NCBI RefSeq assembly: GCF_000244975.1
Contig: NZ_CM001440.1
Coordinates: 3,704,325-3,768,324 of the forward strand
Length of the DNA stretch: 64,000 nt
Direction of reading: 5' to 3'
Source: Saccharomonospora cyanea NA-134
GTDB lineage: Bacteria; Actinomycetota; Actinomycetes; Mycobacteriales; Pseudonocardiaceae
Each line of letters opens with the position of its first letter. Within the stretch, counting starts at the first letter, position 1. A program made the position numbers and the translations under genes. The notes under the pieces are model-generated. The model saw only the letters and a program-made list of their open reading frames with translations, was not told where the DNA came from and searched no databases. Below are positions 7,694-43,027 of the stretch, piece after piece.

Positions 7694-8311
7694 ATGACCG
7701 ACACACCGCCGAGAAGGGCCGCCCGGCGGGGCAGGCCCGGCTACGACCTGGAGTCGCTGCTCGCGGTGGCGGTCGAGCTGTTCAACGAGCGCGGCTACGA
7801 CGGCACGAGCATGGAGGACCTCTCCCGCAAGCTCGGCATCACCAAGTCGGCCATCTACCACCACGTGCGCAGCAAGGACGAACTCCTCAGCCTCGCCGTG
7901 AACCGTGGTCTGGACGCGTTGTTCGCCGAGGCGGGCAAGCTCGACGACGTCGAGGGCCGGGCCATCGACAAGCTGGAACACCTGGTGCGGGCCAGCGTGC
8001 GGGTACTGGTCGAGCAGTTGCCGTTCGTGACCCTGCTGCTTCGGGTGCGCGGCAACAGCCAGGTGGAGCGCGACGCGCTCGCCCGGCGGCGGGAGTTCGA
8101 CCAGATCGTCGCCGATCTGGTGAGCAAGGCCGCCGCCGACGGCGACCTGCGTCCCGACGTCGACCCCGCGACCTCGGCCCGCCTGCTGTTCGGCATGGTG
8201 AACTCGCTGGTCGAGTGGTACCGCCCACGCGGCGGGGTCGGCGCCGACGCGATGGCCGACATCGTCGCCACCGTGGCGTTCGACGGGCTGCGGGTGCGCG
8301 CCCCCCGCTGA
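7694..8311 (+). CDS. paaR: TetR-family repressor of the paa cluster, PaaR
   Basis: The 205-residue protein has an N-terminal DNA-binding domain with the recognition segment MEDLSRKLGITKSAIYHHVR near residues 37-56. An all-helical ligand domain follows. It is the last gene of the paaI-paaK unit, starting 7 bases after paaK, which is where PaaR lies in other actinobacteria. Expected role: repression of the paa promoters until phenylacetyl-CoA binds. The two palindromes at 4839 and 5834 are its likely targets. Confidence 0.85.
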   Translation: MTDTPPRRAARRGRPGYDLESLLAVAVELFNERGYDGTSMEDLSRKLGITKSAIYHHVRSKDELLSLAVNRGLDALFAEAGKLDDVEGRAIDKLEHLVRASVRVLVEQLPFVTLLLRVRGNSQVERDALARRREFDQIVADLVSKAAADGDLRPDVDPATSARLLFGMVNSLVEWYRPRGGVGADAMADIVATVAFDGLRVRAPR

Positions 8312-8312
8312 C

Positions 8313-9287
8313 TCACCCCTGGTCCTCGTCCAGCACGGCCAGCAGAGCGAGGGCCCGCTCCGTCGCCCCGTACAGCACGCTGTGGCCCTCCCGCCGTCGC
8401 GCCACCAGGTCGTCCGCGCGCAACCGCGCCAGGTGGTAGGACACCGTGGCGGGACTGAGCCCGTGGCGGGACGAGAGTTCCGACGTCGAGCGAGCGGTGC
8501 GCAGGTCCGCCAGCAGGGTCAGTCGCCGCGGGCCCAGAACCGGTGCGCCCAGCACCGGCCGGGGCGACGACCAGACGGTGCCCCGGCCGCGCGCCGGGTA
8601 GCCCACCAGGATCTGGTCCTGCGTCCCGTTCCACAGGGCGGGCCACGGCAGGAAGACCGACGGCAGCAACACCAGCCCCGGCCGCGCGTCGACCGTCAGC
8701 TCGTACGAGGTGGCTCTCGTCAACGTCGTCCCGTCCCAGTGCAGTGTGGGGTGCAGACCGGTGAGGATGCCGCCGAAGCCCTCCCTCGCGGCGTCGGCCG
8801 CGCGCTGCCGGACGTCCTCGTCGAGCACTCGGCGCAGGGCGGGCCACGCGTCGGCGAGGACGACGTCCCAGCAGTGCCGCAACTGATCGGCCGCCGCTTC
8901 GGCCACCGCGCGTTCGCCGCCATCGTCGAGCACGTCGACGACCGCGCGGGGCAGTCGCGTGCCGAACGCGCGCGCCAACTGCCGCCGGACGATCTCCGCC
9001 GGGGTCGCCGCCACGGCCGCCAGCTCAGCGTCCAGCGTCGGCTCGTACTCGGTGGGCAGCGGGACGAGGAAGTCCGGCACGTAGGAGGAGTCGGGCTCGA
9101 CCAGCGCGTACACCAGCGCCACGGAGTCACGGTCCAGGCGGGGCCGCACGAGCTTCACCCAGCCGAGAGCGAACGGCGCCCGGTCCGGATGCGTCAGCAC
9201 CTCCAGCGCACACGACAGCTCCGCGAGCCGCGACACGGCGAACCGGGACCGCGCGAGTGACTCCGGCCCCACGTGCAAGGTCAGCAT
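8313..9287 (-). CDS. ArsR-type winged-helix regulator with long N-terminal domain
   Basis: The 324-residue protein has a C-terminal winged-helix domain (about residues 245-320), with LLADLRTARSTSELSSRHG followed by LSPATVSYHLARLRADDLVA. The first 240 residues form the DUF5937-like domain common in actinobacterial ArsR-type proteins and probably sense a ligand. No cysteine pair for metal sensing is visible, so a metal role is unlikely. It is read divergently from a metallo-beta-lactamase-fold gene with a perfect palindrome between them, so it probably controls itself and that gene. Confidence 0.8.
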   Translation of the reverse strand: MLTLHVGPESLARSRFAVSRLAELSCALEVLTHPDRAPFALGWVKLVRPRLDRDSVALVYALVEPDSSYVPDFLVPLPTEYEPTLDAELAAVAATPAEIVRRQLARAFGTRLPRAVVDVLDDGGERAVAEAAADQLRHCWDVVLADAWPALRRVLDEDVRQRAADAAREGFGGILTGLHPTLHWDGTTLTRATSYELTVDARPGLVLLPSVFLPWPALWNGTQDQILVGYPARGRGTVWSSPRPVLGAPVLGPRRLTLLADLRTARSTSELSSRHGLSPATVSYHLARLRADDLVARRREGHSVLYGATERALALLAVLDEDQG

Positions 9288-36296: not shown

Positions 36297-36388
36297 TCAC
36301 AACGATCGTCGGTGTCGCCAAAGAGTGAATCCATGCCACCGTCCACATGACCCAGTTCGATGCTGCGCACAGAAACGAGGTCGGGGAC

Positions 36389-37159
36389 ATGCGTAATCGG
36401 ACCGGACGTCTGATCGCGGGCTCGCTCGCGGCTCTCGTCGTCGGCGTGGGAGTGCCCGCGTCGGCCGAGGCACCGTCCGACGACTACTACTCCGGAACCG
36501 AGGGGCTCAGCGGTGAGGCCCTGAAGGACGCCCTGCACGACATCATCAGCGACGCCGAACAACTGTCCTACAGCGAGATCTGGGACGGGATCAAGGCCAC
36601 GGACGAGGACCCCGCGAACCCGAACAACGTGATCCTGCTCTACAGCGGCGAGTCCCGGTCGAAGAACGACAACGGCGGCAACGTCGGTGACTGGAACCGG
36701 GAACACGTGTGGGCGAAGTCCCACGGAGACTTCGGTACGTCCGGGCCCGGCGCCGACCTGCACCACCTGCGTCCCACCGACGTGCAGGTGAACAGCGTCC
36801 GGGGCAACAAGGACTTCGACAACGGCGGTGGCGCCGTCGACGGTGCCCCGGACAACTACACCGACGACGACTCCTTCGAGCCGCGGGACGAGGTCAAGGG
36901 CGACGTCGCCCGGATGGTCTTCTACATGGCGGTCCGGTACGAGGGCACCGACAGCTACCCCGACCTGGAACTCAACGACCAGGTCAACAACGGATCAGCG
37001 CCGTACCACGGCAGGCTGTCCGTGCTGCTGGAGTGGCACGAGGCCGACCCGGTGGACGACTTCGAGCGCAACCGCAACGAAGTCGTCTACGAGCGGTTCC
37101 AGCACAACCGCAACCCGTTCATCGACCACCCGGAGTGGGCGGCCGAGATCTGGGGCTGA
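36389..37159 (+). CDS. Secreted endonuclease I family nuclease
   Basis: The 256-residue protein starts at an ATG preceded by GAGGTCGGGG. It has a Sec signal peptide, MRNRTGRLIAGSLAALVVGV, with cleavage probably after SAEA. The catalytic region has GDWNREHVWAKSHGDFG near residues 99-115, then GADLHHLRPTDVQVNS, the His-Me finger motifs of the endonuclease I/NucM family. It degrades DNA, and perhaps RNA, outside the cell. Its TGA stop forms one end of the inverted repeat at 37157-37250. Confidence 0.9.
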   Translation: MRNRTGRLIAGSLAALVVGVGVPASAEAPSDDYYSGTEGLSGEALKDALHDIISDAEQLSYSEIWDGIKATDEDPANPNNVILLYSGESRSKNDNGGNVGDWNREHVWAKSHGDFGTSGPGADLHHLRPTDVQVNSVRGNKDFDNGGGAVDGAPDNYTDDDSFEPRDEVKGDVARMVFYMAVRYEGTDSYPDLELNDQVNNGSAPYHGRLSVLLEWHEADPVDDFERNRNEVVYERFQHNRNPFIDHPEWAAEIWG

Positions 37160-37250
37160 CCCACGACATCGTGTCCGCATCTCTCGTACGGGTGTTCACG
37201 TCACACGGCGCGGACACCCGGACACAGACTGCGGACACGATGTCGGGTCA
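37157..37250. repeat. Long inverted repeat spanning both stop codons of convergent genes
   Basis: The left arm 37157-37179 (TGACCCACGACATCG then TGTCCGCA) pairs with the right arm 37230-37250 (TGCGGACACGATG then TCGGGTCA). One base is bulged. The 50-base loop holds a second stem, CGGGTGT with ACACCCG, and CGTACG. The outer TGA of each arm is the stop codon of the endonuclease gene on one side and the glycosyltransferase fusion on the other. It shares CTGCGGACACG with the repeat at 10444. It could act as a bidirectional terminator. Confidence 0.8.
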
Positions 37251-40200
37251 CCGGCGGAGCAGTGGCCGGGCGTGTCGGGGTTTCGGCGGTGCCCCCGGCA
37301 GCAGCCGGACCCGGCGCCGTGCGGCGAGGTCCTCGGCCCAGCCGAACGCGAGCACCGCCGCCGCCGTCAGCGCCACGGCGAGAGCGAAGTGCTCCGTTCG
37401 CGAGTAATCGCCCCACCACACGACGATCGGCGCCGCCAGGTAGATAGCCACGTTGTGCCACAGGTACACGGTGACCGCCCTGGCGTTGAGCACGGTGACG
37501 AGCCGCCCCAGTACGGGAACGCGATCGAGCCACGCCATCGACGGCGACACCCGCAGCGCCACGAGAACGAAGCCCGCACTGACCAGCGCCTGTGCCAGCG
37601 GGATCTCGTTGAGGTCGTAGGAACCCCACGACGGATGGGTCGCCGCCCACCACAGTCCCGCCGACATCGACACCGCCGCCACGGCGCCGAGCACGGCGAA
37701 GCGAACGCGGGCCAGCGACCCGTCACGGTGGGCGAAGCCGAGCACCCAGCAGGCACCGAACGTGCAGAAGTCCAGCAAGCCCTGACCGAAGTCCGCCATC
37801 CCCGACAGCGGGGATCCCGTCAGCGCGTCCGCGGCGACGAGCGCCAGCGGTGTCAGGATCGTCAGCAGTGGCCGACGGCGGTACAGGCGCAGGAGCAACG
37901 GCGTCAGCAGCACGAACCACAGGTACGCGCGGACGTACCAGAGGACGATCGCCGCGTCGCGGCCCAACCCCCAGTCGCTGTGTGGCGGATCGAGGATCGG
38001 GAAGATCCACAGTATGAGTTCGGACCAGCGCAGCGTGTCGCTCGCCCAGCTCTCCCCGGTGGCCGCGCTCCAGCCGAACACCAGCATCAGCGGCACCATC
38101 ACCACGGCCAGCACCCACAGCGGCGGCAGCAACCGCACGATGCGCCTGCCGACGACGTCCACGGGCGGTTGCCGCTCCATCGAGCGGGCCATCAGCGACC
38201 CGCCGACGGCGAACATGACGCCCATCGCGGGAAACACCATGCTCAGCCAAGGCCAGCCGACGGTGTGGTAGAGCATCACCCGGCCCAGCGCCGCGGCCCT
38301 GAGCACGTCCAGCCAGCGTTCGCGGCGGGGACGTTCCGCCACAGGTGCCGGTTCCTTCCGCGCGCCGCTGTCGTCCGGAGTCCTCGGCGCGGGGACGGCG
38401 GGTCGCGCCGCGCGCTGTGGCGCGGTGGGTTGAGCCTCGTGCGGTGGCGGGGCGGGTCGCACCCTGGACGGCAGTGCGGCGCTACCTGCCCTGCGCATGT
38501 GCTGCCATCGCACCCGCACCCCCGAGGCCGCCGCGGTGAGCGACTGCACGAGCACCACGTACATGAGCTGGCGGTAGAGGAGCTGCTGAGCGGGCAGCAA
38601 CCACAGCACCGTCCGGCGTTCGCCGTCGAGGTGGAACGCGTACGCGGCCACTCCCGTCTGCACGGCGAGCATGCCCAGCCACAGCAACACGGTGGTCTGC
38701 GAATCGAGGAACAGCAGACCGTAGAGAAGAAAGATGTCGATCACCGGCGCGATGACGGGCAGCACGATCTGGAAGAGCACCACGTGCAACAGCCCGAAGC
38801 GGCCGACACGTCCCGCCGCCCCGCGCTGCACGACGGCGCGGCGGTGCTTCCACAACGCCTGCATGGTGCCGAAGGTCCACCGGTAGCGCTGTTGCCAGAG
38901 CTGTCGGACGGTGGTCGGCGCCTCGGTCCACGTCACCGCATTCTCCTGGAACACCGTGCGCCAACCCGCCCGGCCGATGCTGATGGTGAGGTCGGTGTCC
39001 TCCGCGAGCGTCTGGGAACTCAGTCCCCCCACCTGCAGCAGTGCCGAACGCCGGAAGGCACCACCCGCACCCGGCACGGTCGGCATCGAGCGCAACACGT
39101 CGTGGACACGGCGGTCGACGTTGAAACCGATGACGTACTCGATGTGCTGGAGGCGAGCCAGCAGCGTCTCCCGGTTGGCGACCTTGACGTTGGCGGAGAC
39201 AGCTCCGACCTGTGGATCGGCGAACGGCTGCACGAGTTCGTGCACGGTGGTCGGTTCGAACACGGTGTCGCCGTCCACCATGACGATGAGCTCGTACTTC
39301 GCGGCGGCGATGCCCGCGTTGAGAGCGGCGGCCTTGCCGCCGTTGGGCCTGCGCAGCACCCGAACCTCCGACAACCCGAGGCTCTCCACGAGGTCGGCTG
39401 TGCCGTCGGTCGACCCGTCGTCGACCACGATCACCTCGACGTGGTGGTTGCTGGCGACCGCCGACCGCACCGTGGCCTCGATGCCGGCGGCTTCGTTGTA
39501 GGCGGGAACGATCACCGAAACCGGGTCGTGGACAGGCGGCCCCCACTGTGGTCGGGGCCGGTGGCGCCGCGCGGCGTGCCTGCGTGCCACGAATACGAGC
39601 AACAGCAACCGCAACACCGTCAGGGCGCCCACCGCGAAGAGGAGCCACTTCAGACCCTCCACCACGGCCAGGGCGACGTTGACGAAGACGGCCAGTGCGG
39701 TACCCGACGCCTGGTCCACGGTGGAGGCCGGATCGGCACGGTTGGTCCCCAGTACGTCCGTGATCGTGGTGAACCGGTACCCCTGCTCCTTGAGCCGGGG
39801 AATGAGCACGTCCAGCGCGGCGACGGTCTGCGACCGGTCGCCCCCGGCGTCGTGTAGTAACACCGTGGCGCCGCGCCCGTCGGGTGGTGTGGAGTTGCGC
39901 ACGATGGCCTCCACCCCGGGGCGCTTCCAGTCGGCACTGTCGATGTCGCTGAACACGCTGACGTAGCCGAGCTCCCCCGCTGTGCGCACCACGTCGTACG
40001 CGGGGTTGTCGATGGCCTCCACACCGGACGAGTACGGCGGGCGGAACAACCGGGTCGTCACACCGGCCGCTCCCGCGATCACGAGCTGGGTCTGGTGCAG
40101 TTCACGTTCCACCCGCCAGGGCGAGACCAGCGCGAGATCAGGGTGGGTGAACGTGTGTACGCCGAGCTCGGAGCCGGATTCGTGGATCCGCCGCACGAGC

Positions 40201-40553
40201 TCGGGGTGCCGGGCGGCCATGGACCCGACCACGAAGAACGTCGCGGGCACGTCATGGCGTTCGAGCACCTCCAACACCTTCGGTGTCCACGTCGGGTCGG
40301 GTCCGTCGTCGAAGGTCAACGCGAGGGTGCGCGGTGGCATCGCCGTGGACACCACCGAGTCACCGTCGGCGTGAACGAGGGCTCCACCCTCGTTCACCGA
40401 GTTCGGTACCTCCGACCGACTCTGGAAGCTCCGCCCGGGCTTCGCGTCGTTGCCTATCTCGGACGTGGCCCAGCCGGCCACGAGCAGCAGCAGCGCGAAA
40501 AGCAGACCGAGCACACCGGCCACGATCCACGATCCCCGTACGCGCACGAGCAC
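37248..40553 (-). CDS. Trifunctional polysaccharide deacetylase - GT2 glycosyltransferase - acyltransferase 3
   Basis: The 1101-residue membrane protein joins three enzymes. Residues 75-270, after one membrane helix, are a NodB-type deacetylase with TFDDGPDPTW (80-89), VHTFTHPD (132-139) and RPPYSSG (171). Residues 344-680 are a processive family 2 glycosyltransferase with VVDDGS, MVDGDT (425-430), AEDTD and QQRYRW (554-559), followed by membrane helices. After a proline/alanine-rich linker (690-740), residues 746-1085 are an acyltransferase 3 with about ten helices and LYHTVG (H763). The set suggests synthesis, N-deacetylation and O-acylation of a surface amino-sugar polymer. The GTG start is 3 bases after the preceding stop. 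Confidence 0.9.
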   Translation of the reverse strand: MLVRVRGSWIVAGVLGLLFALLLLVAGWATSEIGNDAKPGRSFQSRSEVPNSVNEGGALVHADGDSVVSTAMPPRTLALTFDDGPDPTWTPKVLEVLERHDVPATFFVVGSMAARHPELVRRIHESGSELGVHTFTHPDLALVSPWRVERELHQTQLVIAGAAGVTTRLFRPPYSSGVEAIDNPAYDVVRTAGELGYVSVFSDIDSADWKRPGVEAIVRNSTPPDGRGATVLLHDAGGDRSQTVAALDVLIPRLKEQGYRFTTITDVLGTNRADPASTVDQASGTALAVFVNVALAVVEGLKWLLFAVGALTVLRLLLLVFVARRHAARRHRPRPQWGPPVHDPVSVIVPAYNEAAGIEATVRSAVASNHHVEVIVVDDGSTDGTADLVESLGLSEVRVLRRPNGGKAAALNAGIAAAKYELIVMVDGDTVFEPTTVHELVQPFADPQVGAVSANVKVANRETLLARLQHIEYVIGFNVDRRVHDVLRSMPTVPGAGGAFRRSALLQVGGLSSQTLAEDTDLTISIGRAGWRTVFQENAVTWTEAPTTVRQLWQQRYRWTFGTMQALWKHRRAVVQRGAAGRVGRFGLLHVVLFQIVLPVIAPVIDIFLLYGLLFLDSQTTVLLWLGMLAVQTGVAAYAFHLDGERRTVLWLLPAQQLLYRQLMYVVLVQSLTAAASGVRVRWQHMRRAGSAALPSRVRPAPPPHEAQPTAPQRAARPAVPAPRTPDDSGARKEPAPVAERPRRERWLDVLRAAALGRVMLYHTVGWPWLSMVFPAMGVMFAVGGSLMARSMERQPPVDVVGRRIVRLLPPLWVLAVVMVPLMLVFGWSAATGESWASDTLRWSELILWIFPILDPPHSDWGLGRDAAIVLWYVRAYLWFVLLTPLLLRLYRRRPLLTILTPLALVAADALTGSPLSGMADFGQGLLDFCTFGACWVLGFAHRDGSLARVRFAVLGAVAAVSMSAGLWWAATHPSWGSYDLNEIPLAQALVSAGFVLVALRVSPSMAWLDRVPVLGRLVTVLNARAVTVYLWHNVAIYLAAPIVVWWGDYSRTEHFALAVALTAAAVLAFGWAEDLAARRRVRLLPGAPPKPRHARPLLRR

Positions 40554-40556
40554 TCC

Positions 40557-41630
40557 TTACAACTCGAACACGTGCGGCCGGGTGGTCGGCCGATCGCCGA
40601 CGGACGAGAACCACTCTTCCGCGGAGAAGCTGAACACCGAAGGCTTCACCGACTCGGTGCCTTCGGTGCCTTCGGTATCTTCAGCACCCCCTGTCCCCCC
40701 AGCTTCCTCAGCTTCCTCAGCTTCCTCAGCGCCTTCGGAGCCTTCGGAGCCTTCGGCGTTCTCGGTACCCTCGGTGCCCGCGACGTCTTCGGGTTCCTCG
40801 GCGCCTTCGGAGTCGTACGGGGTCGCACCGTCCGTTCCGTCCTCGCCCCCCTCCACACCACCGGGGTACTCAGGACTTCCGAAGTCTTCGGCGTCCTCGG
40901 TGCTTCCAGTGTCTTCGGTGTCCTCGGTGTCCTCGGTGTCCTCGACGTTGTCCGCACCGGAGTGCTGATCGTGCTCCCGGTCGGACTCCCCACCGTCGGC
41001 GCCTTCGTCACTGCCGGTGCCCTCCTCGGTTTCCTCCCCCGTGTCCTCCTCGGTTTCCCCCTGCTCGTCCTCCGGCTCCGCCTCTGCGGTCGGCTCCTCG
41101 TCGGAGTCGGCGGTCTCGTCCGGCTCGGCGTCCTCGAGAACGGCCTCGTCCACCTCGGGCTCACCATCGGGGTCCTCGGTGAACGGCGAGGTCACCCGGA
41201 CCTGGCCGAGGTACGACGACTGGGGCCGCGGCGTCAGCTCGTCCCCCACAGGTTCCGCTTCCTCGAACTCGTCCCCGACCAGGTTTCGCGTCGGAGCCTC
41301 GGCTCCGTTCCGGGTAGCGTCCTCGGTCGCGTTCTCCGCCGGACTCGCCTCGGGTTCGGTGGGTGCCACGCGGTCTCCACCGGCGCGTGAGGTCATCGTG
41401 TCGCCGAGGGGGTCAGGGGACATCGCCTGCCGGATCGGTAGCGCGAACGACGCGGTCGCGGACGGGCTGTCGGCGAAGAGCACGCCGCAGGCGGCCAGGG
41501 CCATGACACTGCTGCCCGCGGTCACCCCGGCCGTCATCCGCAACCACATCCGCCGGCGTCCACGGGTGTCCAGGAAGATGGGCTGGTCCGGGGCGACCGA
41601 GTGGTCCTCGGCCCCTCTGGGCTGGGTCAC
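40557..41630 (-). CDS. Membrane-anchored, extremely acidic repeat protein
   Basis: The 357-residue protein starts at a GTG overlapping the stop of the GH18-like gene (GTGA). One membrane helix at about residues 30-52 (TAGVTAGSSVMALAACGVLF) is followed by roughly 300 residues of Glu, Asp, Thr, Ser and Gly with short repeats such as EDTEDTEDTEDTGSTEDAED and EGSEGAEEAEEAEEAGGTGG. The chain ends with a less acidic tail, SAEEWFSSVGDRPTTRPHVF. No domain was recognised. It is probably an external polyanionic spacer or a partner of the polysaccharide machinery in the same operon. Confidence 0.8.
   Translation of the reverse strand: MTQPRGAEDHSVAPDQPIFLDTRGRRRMWLRMTAGVTAGSSVMALAACGVLFADSPSATASFALPIRQAMSPDPLGDTMTSRAGGDRVAPTEPEASPAENATEDATRNGAEAPTRNLVGDEFEEAEPVGDELTPRPQSSYLGQVRVTSPFTEDPDGEPEVDEAVLEDAEPDETADSDEEPTAEAEPEDEQGETEEDTGEETEEGTGSDEGADGGESDREHDQHSGADNVEDTEDTEDTEDTGSTEDAEDFGSPEYPGGVEGGEDGTDGATPYDSEGAEEPEDVAGTEGTENAEGSEGSEGAEEAEEAEEAGGTGGAEDTEGTEGTESVKPSVFSFSAEEWFSSVGDRPTTRPHVFEL
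40650..40960. repeat. Imperfect tandem repeats coding for acidic tracts
   Basis: Short units such as GTCCTCGGT, GCCTTCGGA and AGCTTCCTC repeat with small changes within the acidic-protein gene. Units keep the reading frame, so the length can change by slippage without breaking the protein. Confidence 0.7.
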
Positions 41631-42676
41631 GGTTGGTTCCCTCCTGCTTGCTGGTGAGTCGATCGCGGCTCCTGCGCCAGCGACCGGGTGAAGGCGTGTG
41701 GACGTTGCCGAAGGCCGCTGCACCGGCTGGACGCGGTGCTGAGTCCGGGACAGTCGCCGTTGTCACGGTTGAGCGACCAGAAGCCGAGGAACCCCACGGA
41801 ACGGTCGGTGGCGAACTCACGCAACGCTCGCGCGTTCGCGACCGTCGTGACGGGTCCGGTGTCGTTGCGCCCGGCCATGTACGTGATGCCGAGACGCGCG
41901 TACGCGTCGGCCCGGTCGTCGTGTCCCCAGAGCCGCTGGATCTGGTCGGTGACCCGCTCGGCCGAGGTGGTCAGGGTGGTGAGCCAGTCACCGCGTGCGG
42001 GCAGGTTCATCACCATCGCGTTCACCGTCACGTCCAGCCCCCGCTCCCGCAGTGCCCGCAGCAGGGCTAGTCCCGAGGGGGTGAGGCCCGTCGCCGCGTC
42101 CTCGACCGGGACGGTGACGACGAGCGCGACGGCGTGCCGTTGCCGCACGAGTGCGAGCGCCTCCGCGACCCGAACGACCGGTACGTCCTGTTCGACATCG
42201 ACGTCGAGGGTGTCGGCCCCCAGTTTCGTCAGAGCGGTGCCGTAGGCGGTGGCGAGCTGTTCGGGCGTGGCGCACTCGTTCTCGAGGTAGTGCCCGCGGG
42301 CGCCTCCCGAAGCGACCGTCACCGCACCACCTCTGTCGCGCAGCCGATCCACCTCCGCGGTGATGGCGGGGTCGGCCACCGGGCGTCGACCGTTCCACGC
42401 GGGCGCGCAACGTCCGTCCTCCGCGAGGAGGAACGACAGCACGAACCGGTCGACCCCCGTGGAGACGGCGATGTCCGTCAGCGGTGGAAGGTCTTTTCCA
42501 ACGTAGACGTACGGGGCGGCGGGAACCCGTCGGGCGACCGGCTCGGCCGAGCACGCTCCCAGGAGCAGCAGGGCGAGCACGACACAGCCCGTCCGGGCCA
42601 GGTCGCGACCGTTTCCCGTGGGGCCTGCAGTCGAAGCGGTGTCGGCGGCGGGCGTCCGGAGAACCCCGAAAGACAC
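41627..42676 (-). CDS. GH18-like glycoside hydrolase lipoprotein
   Basis: The 349-residue protein starts at a GTG with a GGAGGAAGG ribosome site, although the open frame extends upstream. A lipoprotein signal ends in the lipobox LLGAC (C42). The mature part carries the GH18 active-site pattern DTLDVDVE at residues 155-162, with E162 as the acid. The DYxxFYxxG-type surroundings are partly changed, for example MVMNLPARGDW. It is first in an operon with the acidic protein and the deacetylase-GT2 fusion, so trimming of the same polymer is likely. Confidence 0.8.
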   Translation of the reverse strand: MSFGVLRTPAADTASTAGPTGNGRDLARTGCVVLALLLLGACSAEPVARRVPAAPYVYVGKDLPPLTDIAVSTGVDRFVLSFLLAEDGRCAPAWNGRRPVADPAITAEVDRLRDRGGAVTVASGGARGHYLENECATPEQLATAYGTALTKLGADTLDVDVEQDVPVVRVAEALALVRQRHAVALVVTVPVEDAATGLTPSGLALLRALRERGLDVTVNAMVMNLPARGDWLTTLTTSAERVTDQIQRLWGHDDRADAYARLGITYMAGRNDTGPVTTVANARALREFATDRSVGFLGFWSLNRDNGDCPGLSTASSRCSGLRQRPHAFTRSLAQEPRSTHQQAGGNQP

Positions 42677-43027
42677 GTCTGCCCTTCCTCCCTGGCGGTC
42701 GTCGACATCGCTCGTCACCGTGCCGGCACGCTCCGCAGCCACCCTGGCGCACGTGTCGTCCGTGCTCGGTCCAAAACGACAGAGCAGTGACCAACAGTCC
42801 GGGATGGACGTATCTGAGTAAGCGTGAGGCGCGAGCCGATACGACGCCCACGCCTGGGGCACATCGAAATCTACGGCTGCGCAAGAGGAAGAGTTGACGC
42901 CCTGTCCGAGCGAAAAGCCCGATTGCTATGTCTATTGTGGACATTCAGGGCGAGTGTTCCGGACACGACGAAACCACCCTGGTCCGCCGGACAGGGTGGT
43001 TCGTCCGTTGCCGAACGCGCGAAAGCG
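42677..43027. other. 351-bp non-coding gap
   Basis: This is the upstream region of the GH18-like operon and the downstream region of DUF4383. It holds the terminator at 42973-43000. The open frame that runs in from the GH18-like gene looks untranslated, because its codon choice changes and the better ribosome site is at 42676. Nothing else is recognised. Confidence 0.55.
42973..43000 (-). terminator. Terminator downstream of DUF4383 gene
   Basis: On the minus strand ACCACCCTGTCC and GGACCAGGGTGGT form a stem with one bulged base and a tight loop, followed by TTTCGTCG. It lies 28 bases after the DUF4383 stop. Confidence 0.8.

Follow-up and report, generated by a model that had tools for sequence, protein, structure and literature searches.

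In the 64,000-nucleotide stretch of the Saccharomonospora cyanea NA-134 genome analyzed here (NZ_CM001440.1, positions 3,704,325 to 3,768,324 of the forward strand; hereafter the window), a single gene on the minus strand encodes a NodB-type deacetylase of family CE4, a glycan synthase of family GT2 and an AT3 (Acyl_transf_3) acyltransferase in one polypeptide. This fusion is real, conserved, and recurrent. The split version, a system of the mat/ica type, is known; new is the union of synthase, deacetylase and AT3 acyltransferase in one protein. Among titles and abstract openings of the open-licence literature, we found no description of a NodB-GT2-AT3 single chain.

Domain architecture and catalytic residues of the fusion protein

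The open reading frame (ORF) extends from 40553 to 37248 and comprises 1101 codons that are open throughout, with no internal stop. Pfam models matched above their cut-offs in three successive regions: Polysacc_deac_1 at residues 72–177 (E 3.4e-35), GT2 models at residues 344–562 (best E 6.4e-39), and Acyl_transf_3 (PF01757) at residues 746–1069 (E 2.5e-21; 76.5 bits vs. a cut-off of 31). A preliminary description of this DNA had reported three enzymes in this order in a single 1101-residue protein, with a proline-rich linker ahead of the acyltransferase. ORF and domain matches confirm the former, and 14 prolines among the 53 residues 691–743, together with predicted disorder of residues 690–736, the latter. 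No SGNH domain was detected in the fusion protein by Pfam. The gene contains the following features:

37248..40553, minus strand: CE4-GT2-AT3 fusion gene, 1101 amino acids; likely start GTG at 40547, giving 1099 amino acids
40553..40558, minus strand: Shine-Dalgarno-like AAGGAG (found by eye), overlapping the stop codon TAA (40559–40557) of the MatA-like gene upstream and preceding GTG 40547
39750..40340, minus strand: CE4 (NodB-type) deacetylase domain, residues 72–268 (Pfam, PDB sequence and fold matches, motif residues)
38868..39524, minus strand: GT2 synthase catalytic domain, residues 344–562 (D,D / DxD / ED / QxxRW; Pfam, NCBIfam, fold match)
38346..38486, minus strand: Pro/Arg-rich disordered linker, residues 690–736 (composition; predicted local distance difference test, pLDDT, below 50)
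37347..38318, minus strand: AT3 (Acyl_transf_3) domain, residues 746–1069, about 10 membrane helices (Pfam, motifs, structure model; weak HGSNAT fold match)

Because AAGGAG occupies 40558–40553, GTG 40547 is a likelier start than GTG 40553. In the structure model, the CE4 domain is flanked by helices 2–30 and 278–330; it would face the cell exterior. The arrangement of CE4 followed by GT2 in the same chain, with a membrane helix in between, is that of MatB-type proteins. Judging from its positive charge and the published AT3 topology, the linker probably lies on the cytoplasmic side.

The CE4 motifs comprise an Asp-Asp pair, HxxxH, and a catalytic His. We aligned 24 fused proteins, namely that of the window and those from 23 among the 27 further fused loci described below, and inspected the catalytic positions. 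In the CE4 domain, D82, D83, H133, H137, R171, P173, D208, W209, L232, H234 and D235 are present in all 24 rows, P172 in 21, and Y174 in 16, with F in the remaining eight. The GT2 residues D378, D379, D427, D429, E518, D519, Q555, R558 and W559 are likewise invariant (24/24). The window protein also carries both AT3 motifs as defined in PMC9833829, R-X10-H (R752/H763) and RxxR (R804/R807); H763 and R804 occur in 24 of 24 rows, R752 and R807 in 23. With every catalytic-motif residue checked in place, the intact motif sets noted earlier for all three enzymes hold for the window. The one row lacking the R752 and R807 equivalents is the Amycolatopsis acididurans fusion (L021:6001-9195), which also sits on a long branch (1.28), and its AT3 may therefore be losing activity while still fused.

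With NCBIfam, the GT2 domain scored 179 bits against the PgaC/IcaA model and 85 bits against NodC; three split-locus Streptomyces proteins gave similar PgaC/IcaA scores of 195, 189 and 182 bits. For the deacetylase, the label "PgaB-like" used initially is not the best one, since its domain matches models of the PdaB, NodB and PgdA types (among 25 of the 35 matching models). The AT3 part yielded no useful NCBIfam match.

A model of the full chain (mean pLDDT 85.7, predicted template modelling score, pTM, 0.64) matched hyaluronan and cellulose synthases over GT2 and CE4 deacetylases over its N-terminal part; none of the 50 fold matches listed was an AT3 protein by title. The AT3 part modelled alone (pLDDT 90.5, pTM 0.89) forms about 10 membrane helices. 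It matched no solved structure at E 0.001 or better, its weak top match being human HGSNAT with acetyl-CoA (E 0.27, probability 0.90; other rows listed at 0.09 or below). HGSNAT and AT3 proteins have been placed in one superfamily (PMC12423673).

Fused and split loci in other genomes

We compared the window locus with the best 80 of at least 591 relatives from a scan of a genome collection. Since these 80 were chosen as most like the fused query, shares among the resulting 81 loci do not represent natural frequencies. All three domains reside in one ORF in 28 loci: nine from Actinomycetospora, five each from Saccharomonospora and Pseudonocardia, three each from Micromonospora and Streptomyces, one from Amycolatopsis, one from an actinomycete bin, and the window. 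Two of the Pseudonocardia loci are identical over the compared domains, and in L013 only half of AT3 was matched. A frameshift or sequencing error joining two genes, the objection that the preliminary description had raised against itself, is for all practical purposes excluded as an explanation, because the same single ORF recurs in these 28 loci across many independent assemblies and relatives likewise show long open frames. As a side observation, the Pseudonocardia and Actinomycetospora fusions carry C-terminal extensions that look proline-rich and disordered by eye.

In 43 of the 81 loci, AT3 is a separate gene directly downstream on the same strand (tallied as 42 Streptomyces and one Actinacidiphila; L035 and L039 are both Actinacidiphila). 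In one of them, L069, AT3 is spread over two frames. The synthase stop codon lies inside an ATGA or GTGA overlap in 39 of the 43; L072 and L078 have it in TGATG, in L025 GTG comes immediately after TGA, and no such arrangement exists in L036. Synthase and AT3 genes therefore look translationally coupled in nearly all split loci, and this layout matches that of the published Streptomyces mat locus. Relatives that carry AT3 immediately after the synthase gene suggest teamwork among the three enzymes. Eleven relatives were found on viral contigs, all without the AT3 part, since their matched spans end at residue 755 or before. Of 42 matching plasmid records, none covered 80% of the query.

For an independent sampling, in which places were not chosen through the synthase, a profile of the AT3 part was run against genomes. 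In a first set, eight of 13 genomes matched: eight of nine from the genus, S. cyanea included, and none of four from other families. The one genus genome missed is 83% complete, and the matches lie in open frames of 1084–1495 amino acids across the acyltransferase, frame length alone being assessed here. Within the family, the AT3 part occurs in at least 12 of 150 genomes and three of 46 genera, always in open frames of 1084–1359 amino acids, and within the class in at least 31 of 394 genomes, at 41 places. These are lower bounds, as up to 14 (family) or five (class) candidates were scored per genome. Outside the S. cyanea genome, a CE4-GT2 gene region lies just upstream of AT3 on the same strand in 35 of 40 places of this class census, including L133, where a break splits it between two frames. 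In L126, which was left unclear, AT3 shares its frame with the first part of the synthase, and the remainder of GT2 lies in a different frame. The four places without CE4-GT2 are L159 and L160, both stand-alone AT3 genes, and L161 and L162. In the latter two (L161:3707-4440 and L162:1816-2970), a MatA-like start stands beside the last ~155 AT3 residues, with no synthase in the stretch; both are apparent remnants of a mat locus. A MatA-like match accompanies 35 of the 40 places. The S. cyanea genome itself holds five other Acyl_transf_3 matches, of which the profile caught one (L089, in pieces; absent from the tree described below).

History of the fusion

In a tree of the CE4-GT2 part (81 rows), the fused state appears in three clades, with 22 Pseudonocardiaceae, three Micromonospora and three Streptomyces proteins. 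It requires three changes, and the starred branches also force three. For AT3, the tree (69 rows, without L013 and L069) requires two changes, of which starred branches force one. Gain and loss of the fusion are indistinguishable on these trees, because both are quick searches without a root and because L021 and L028 form long branches. Distances in the two parts correlate (r 0.91, 69 loci), as would be predicted both by co-inheritance and by shared species history, the latter of which alone would give much of this value. Compared with its most similar relative, the window protein shows 83% identity in AT3 and 85% in the synthase part, indicating that its AT3 domain is not decaying.

Upstream genes of the window locus

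Two further genes precede the fusion gene on the same strand:

40557..41630, minus strand: MatA-like gene, 357 amino acids, start GTG 41630 (profile E 9.6e-7; PIFLDTRGRRR, one membrane helix, long acidic low-complexity tail)
41627..42862, minus strand: GH18 exochitinase-like gene (PDB sequence matches), its stop and the MatA-like start sharing four bases (GTGA)

Pfam gave no match for either product; the GH18-like one was placed by PDB sequence search, the MatA-like one by a custom profile. The directly upstream gene encodes the signature PxFxDxxGRR plus a membrane helix, a combination that occurs upstream of matB-type genes, and we therefore regard it as MatA-like. Of 79 loci examined, 56 show a signature-type pattern ahead of the synthase; the selection for the pattern search passed over L072 and L078, which the MatA profile did match. 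For this profile we took 24 rows from other genera, excluding the window and its genus; because these rows were hand-picked from pattern-bearing loci, it favours the pattern. At the expected position, it matched in the window, L009 (E 8.8e-7) and L007 (E 5.3e-4), and L008 gave a further match there that fell short of inclusion (E 0.015). Nothing significant was found with it in nine fused loci of Pseudonocardia and Actinomycetospora or in the Saccharomonospora loci L010, L011 and L013. The match is confined to the 49-residue N-terminal signature, and the tail is not common to these proteins.

GH18 enzymes share the catalytic motif DxxDxDxE. The upstream GH18-like protein has kept these acidic residues (DTLDVDVE), aligned to its best solved relatives, exochitinase 9buf (E 6.4e-35) and chitinase 2dsk (E 4.5e-31). 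The true start probably lies inside the ORF, and the sequence LLLLGACS, noted by eye, makes the product a probable lipid-anchored protein. Of the 80 other loci, 12 have GH18 relatives nearby, four on the same and eight on the opposite strand, and none was found near the remaining 68 within flanks of up to 6 kb (shorter on some contigs). The chitinase part is not always kept: in L009 (4385-5041), the GH18-like gene matched without the middle of the domain.

Since a MatA-like gene precedes the fusion and the GH18 gene overlaps it by four bases, the window locus is, judged from its sequence, a mat-type operon of GH18, matA-like, and matB fused to a SCO2961-like gene. The operon thus indicated in a Saccharomonospora genome adds the GH18 enzyme as a further candidate part.

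A proposed mechanism and its alternatives

In the Streptomyces mat locus, matA (SCO2963) is followed by matB (SCO2962; CE4 plus GT2) and SCO2961, called IcaC-like; the locus has been compared in print with icaADBC. MatAB makes poly-N-acetylglucosamine (PNAG) in S. lividans, and matA mutants are reported to lack the PNAG signal (PMC5972031, PMC4391728). The window locus resembles it, as described there, in its CE4-GT2 protein, in the IcaC-like acyltransferase encoded directly next to it in Streptomyces, and in the translationally coupled membrane protein of no recognized domain that precedes it. It differs in having MatB and the acyltransferase as one chain, an acidic MatA-like tail, and an extra GH18 gene. 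Staphylococcal icaADBC offers the same set of activities by role, namely GT2 synthase, deacetylase, AT3 acyltransferase and small membrane partner (PMC4391728), with the former three as separate proteins instead of one.

By analogy to these systems, it is likely that MatB and an AT3 of the IcaC/SCO2961 type have been merged in one polypeptide of a mat-type operon, and that a PNAG-type chain is deacetylated and acylated while it emerges. The cytoplasmic GT2 domain would polymerize uridine diphosphate N-acetylglucosamine (GlcNAc) and, given its processive-synthase fold, push the chain through its own membrane helices. The outward-facing CE4 domain would strip some N-acetyl groups from the emerging chain, and AT3, tethered by the flexible cytoplasmic linker, would likewise transfer to this chain an acyl group carried across the membrane from acyl-coenzyme A. 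In this scheme, the MatA-like membrane protein would be an accessory and the GH18 protein would trim or release the polymer. Domains, motifs, gene order, coupling and the recurring fusion are observed directly; polymer identity, acyl group, acceptor and topology are what we infer from the comparison, as are PNAG as the polymer and attachment of the acyl group to one of its oxygens. The preliminary description had already proposed one complex that polymerizes, N-deacetylates and acylates, a view that comparison supports well, in a Rosetta-stone pattern with AT3 as the coupled next gene in split relatives and fused in others; it recognized neither the split version as the known Streptomyces matA-matB-SCO2961 system nor the MatA-like upstream gene. 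A natural three-enzyme fusion in three clades is evidence of enzymes working side by side and offers a single protein for testing acylation during synthesis.

Several findings weigh against this mechanism. The GH18 enzyme of the operon is chitinase-like, a poor fit to a β-1,6-linked polymer. The GT2 score of 179.4 bits for TIGR03937 (PgaC/IcaA) falls far below the curated equivalog cut-off of 422.3 bits. The locus is patchy in the family (at least 12 of 150 genomes), and G152, a 99% complete genome of the same genus, gave no match to the AT3 profile. A MatA-like gene accompanies ten of the 28 fused loci, eight by pattern and L007 and, weakly, L008 by profile, some contigs being short upstream. 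The AT3 query was unmatched in ten of the 81 loci which, together with the residues lost in L021, indicates that AT3 is dispensable in the family. Finally, our assignment to the mat locus draws on gene order, domain content and coupling, and not on the named MatB sequence of S. coelicolor or S. lividans.

The same machine might act on a different polymer, an idea compatible with the proposed mechanism: GT2 would make a β-1,4-linked GlcNAc chain of the chitin or chitosan type, which is deacetylated, acylated and trimmed by GH18. The overlapping exochitinase-like gene and its relatives near 12 of 80 loci speak for it, as do a GH46 chitosanase gene adjoining a related synthase in L033, a GH18-CE4-GT2 single chain in Deinococcus and the GT2 score under the PgaC cut-off. 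We nevertheless consider this polymer rather unlikely, because PgaC outscores NodC, the one characterized relative, MatAB, yields dispersin B-sensitive PNAG (PMC5972031), and GH18 relatives were not found in the flanks of most loci or, in L009, are incomplete. The L033 chitosanase gene (8090-8896) and an Actinomycetospora CE4-GT2 gene lie tail to tail; the latter is preceded by a MatA-like gene and has no AT3 match. The Deinococcus chain (PF00704) and a Sphingobium protein with a similarly long N-terminal part without Pfam match are found at L095:1510-4959 and L093:1699-4998. The former shares with the window locus a CE4-GT2 core with a chitinase-type partner, which is fused there rather than encoded by a separate operon gene, and it has no AT3 match.

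A bolder and unlikely version holds that the fused chain is a self-contained machine for a bacterial polymer not yet described, a partly de-N-acetylated and O-acylated chain of the chitosan (or PNAG) type that is acylated during extrusion by the tethered AT3. If true, such tethering would account for the ability of AT3-only enzymes to function with no SGNH partner.

As for the proposed mechanism, a modifying enzyme held beside a processive synthase has a parallel in the Escherichia coli Bcs complex (PDB titles "synthase:pEtN transferase complex", pEtN being phosphoethanolamine). There, cellulose synthase and the transferase are separate proteins, and their chemistry differs from that of the fusion. 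The AT3-SGNH fusions OafB and OatA also join AT3 to a partner (PMC9833829), unlike the window protein, in which this partner is the polymer synthase itself. The same paper raises the question of how AT3-only enzymes can dispense with an SGNH domain, and it speculates that close association with IcaAD could let the AT3-only IcaC acylate the emerging chain (eLife 2023, PMC9833829). The synthase-AT3 fusion bears on this idea, being what one would expect if the two enzymes associate.

Alternatively, AT3 could act on another target, such as a cell-wall glycan, a lipid-linked sugar or a lipid, with the fusion merely securing equal dosage. AT3 proteins do modify many substrates (PMC9558356), and the sequence reveals neither donor nor acceptor. 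We regard this as distinctly improbable, since 36 of the 40 census places (one unclear) have AT3 next to CE4-GT2 or joined to it and the fusion occurs in three clades, pointing to a shared product, and since the five other Acyl_transf_3 matches of the genome are free for other tasks.

In line with the older view of IcaC as an exporter, AT3 might serve transport or structure rather than acyl transfer; for IcaC, transport was the function proposed first, and its part in transport or PNAG acylation is called an outstanding problem (PMC9558356). This is very unlikely here, as the acyl-transfer residues of R-X10-H and RxxR are kept in 23 or 24 of the 24 fused proteins and the GT2 fold matches synthases of the hyaluronan and cellulose type, which extrude their own product.

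Neighboring features

Antisense to the fusion gene, the plus strand of the window contains a 1009-codon open frame (36828–39857), which is probably a by-product of high G+C content. Convergent with the fusion gene lies an Endonuclease I-like gene (36347–37159, plus strand), and the same neighbor is present in L007, L008 and L009.

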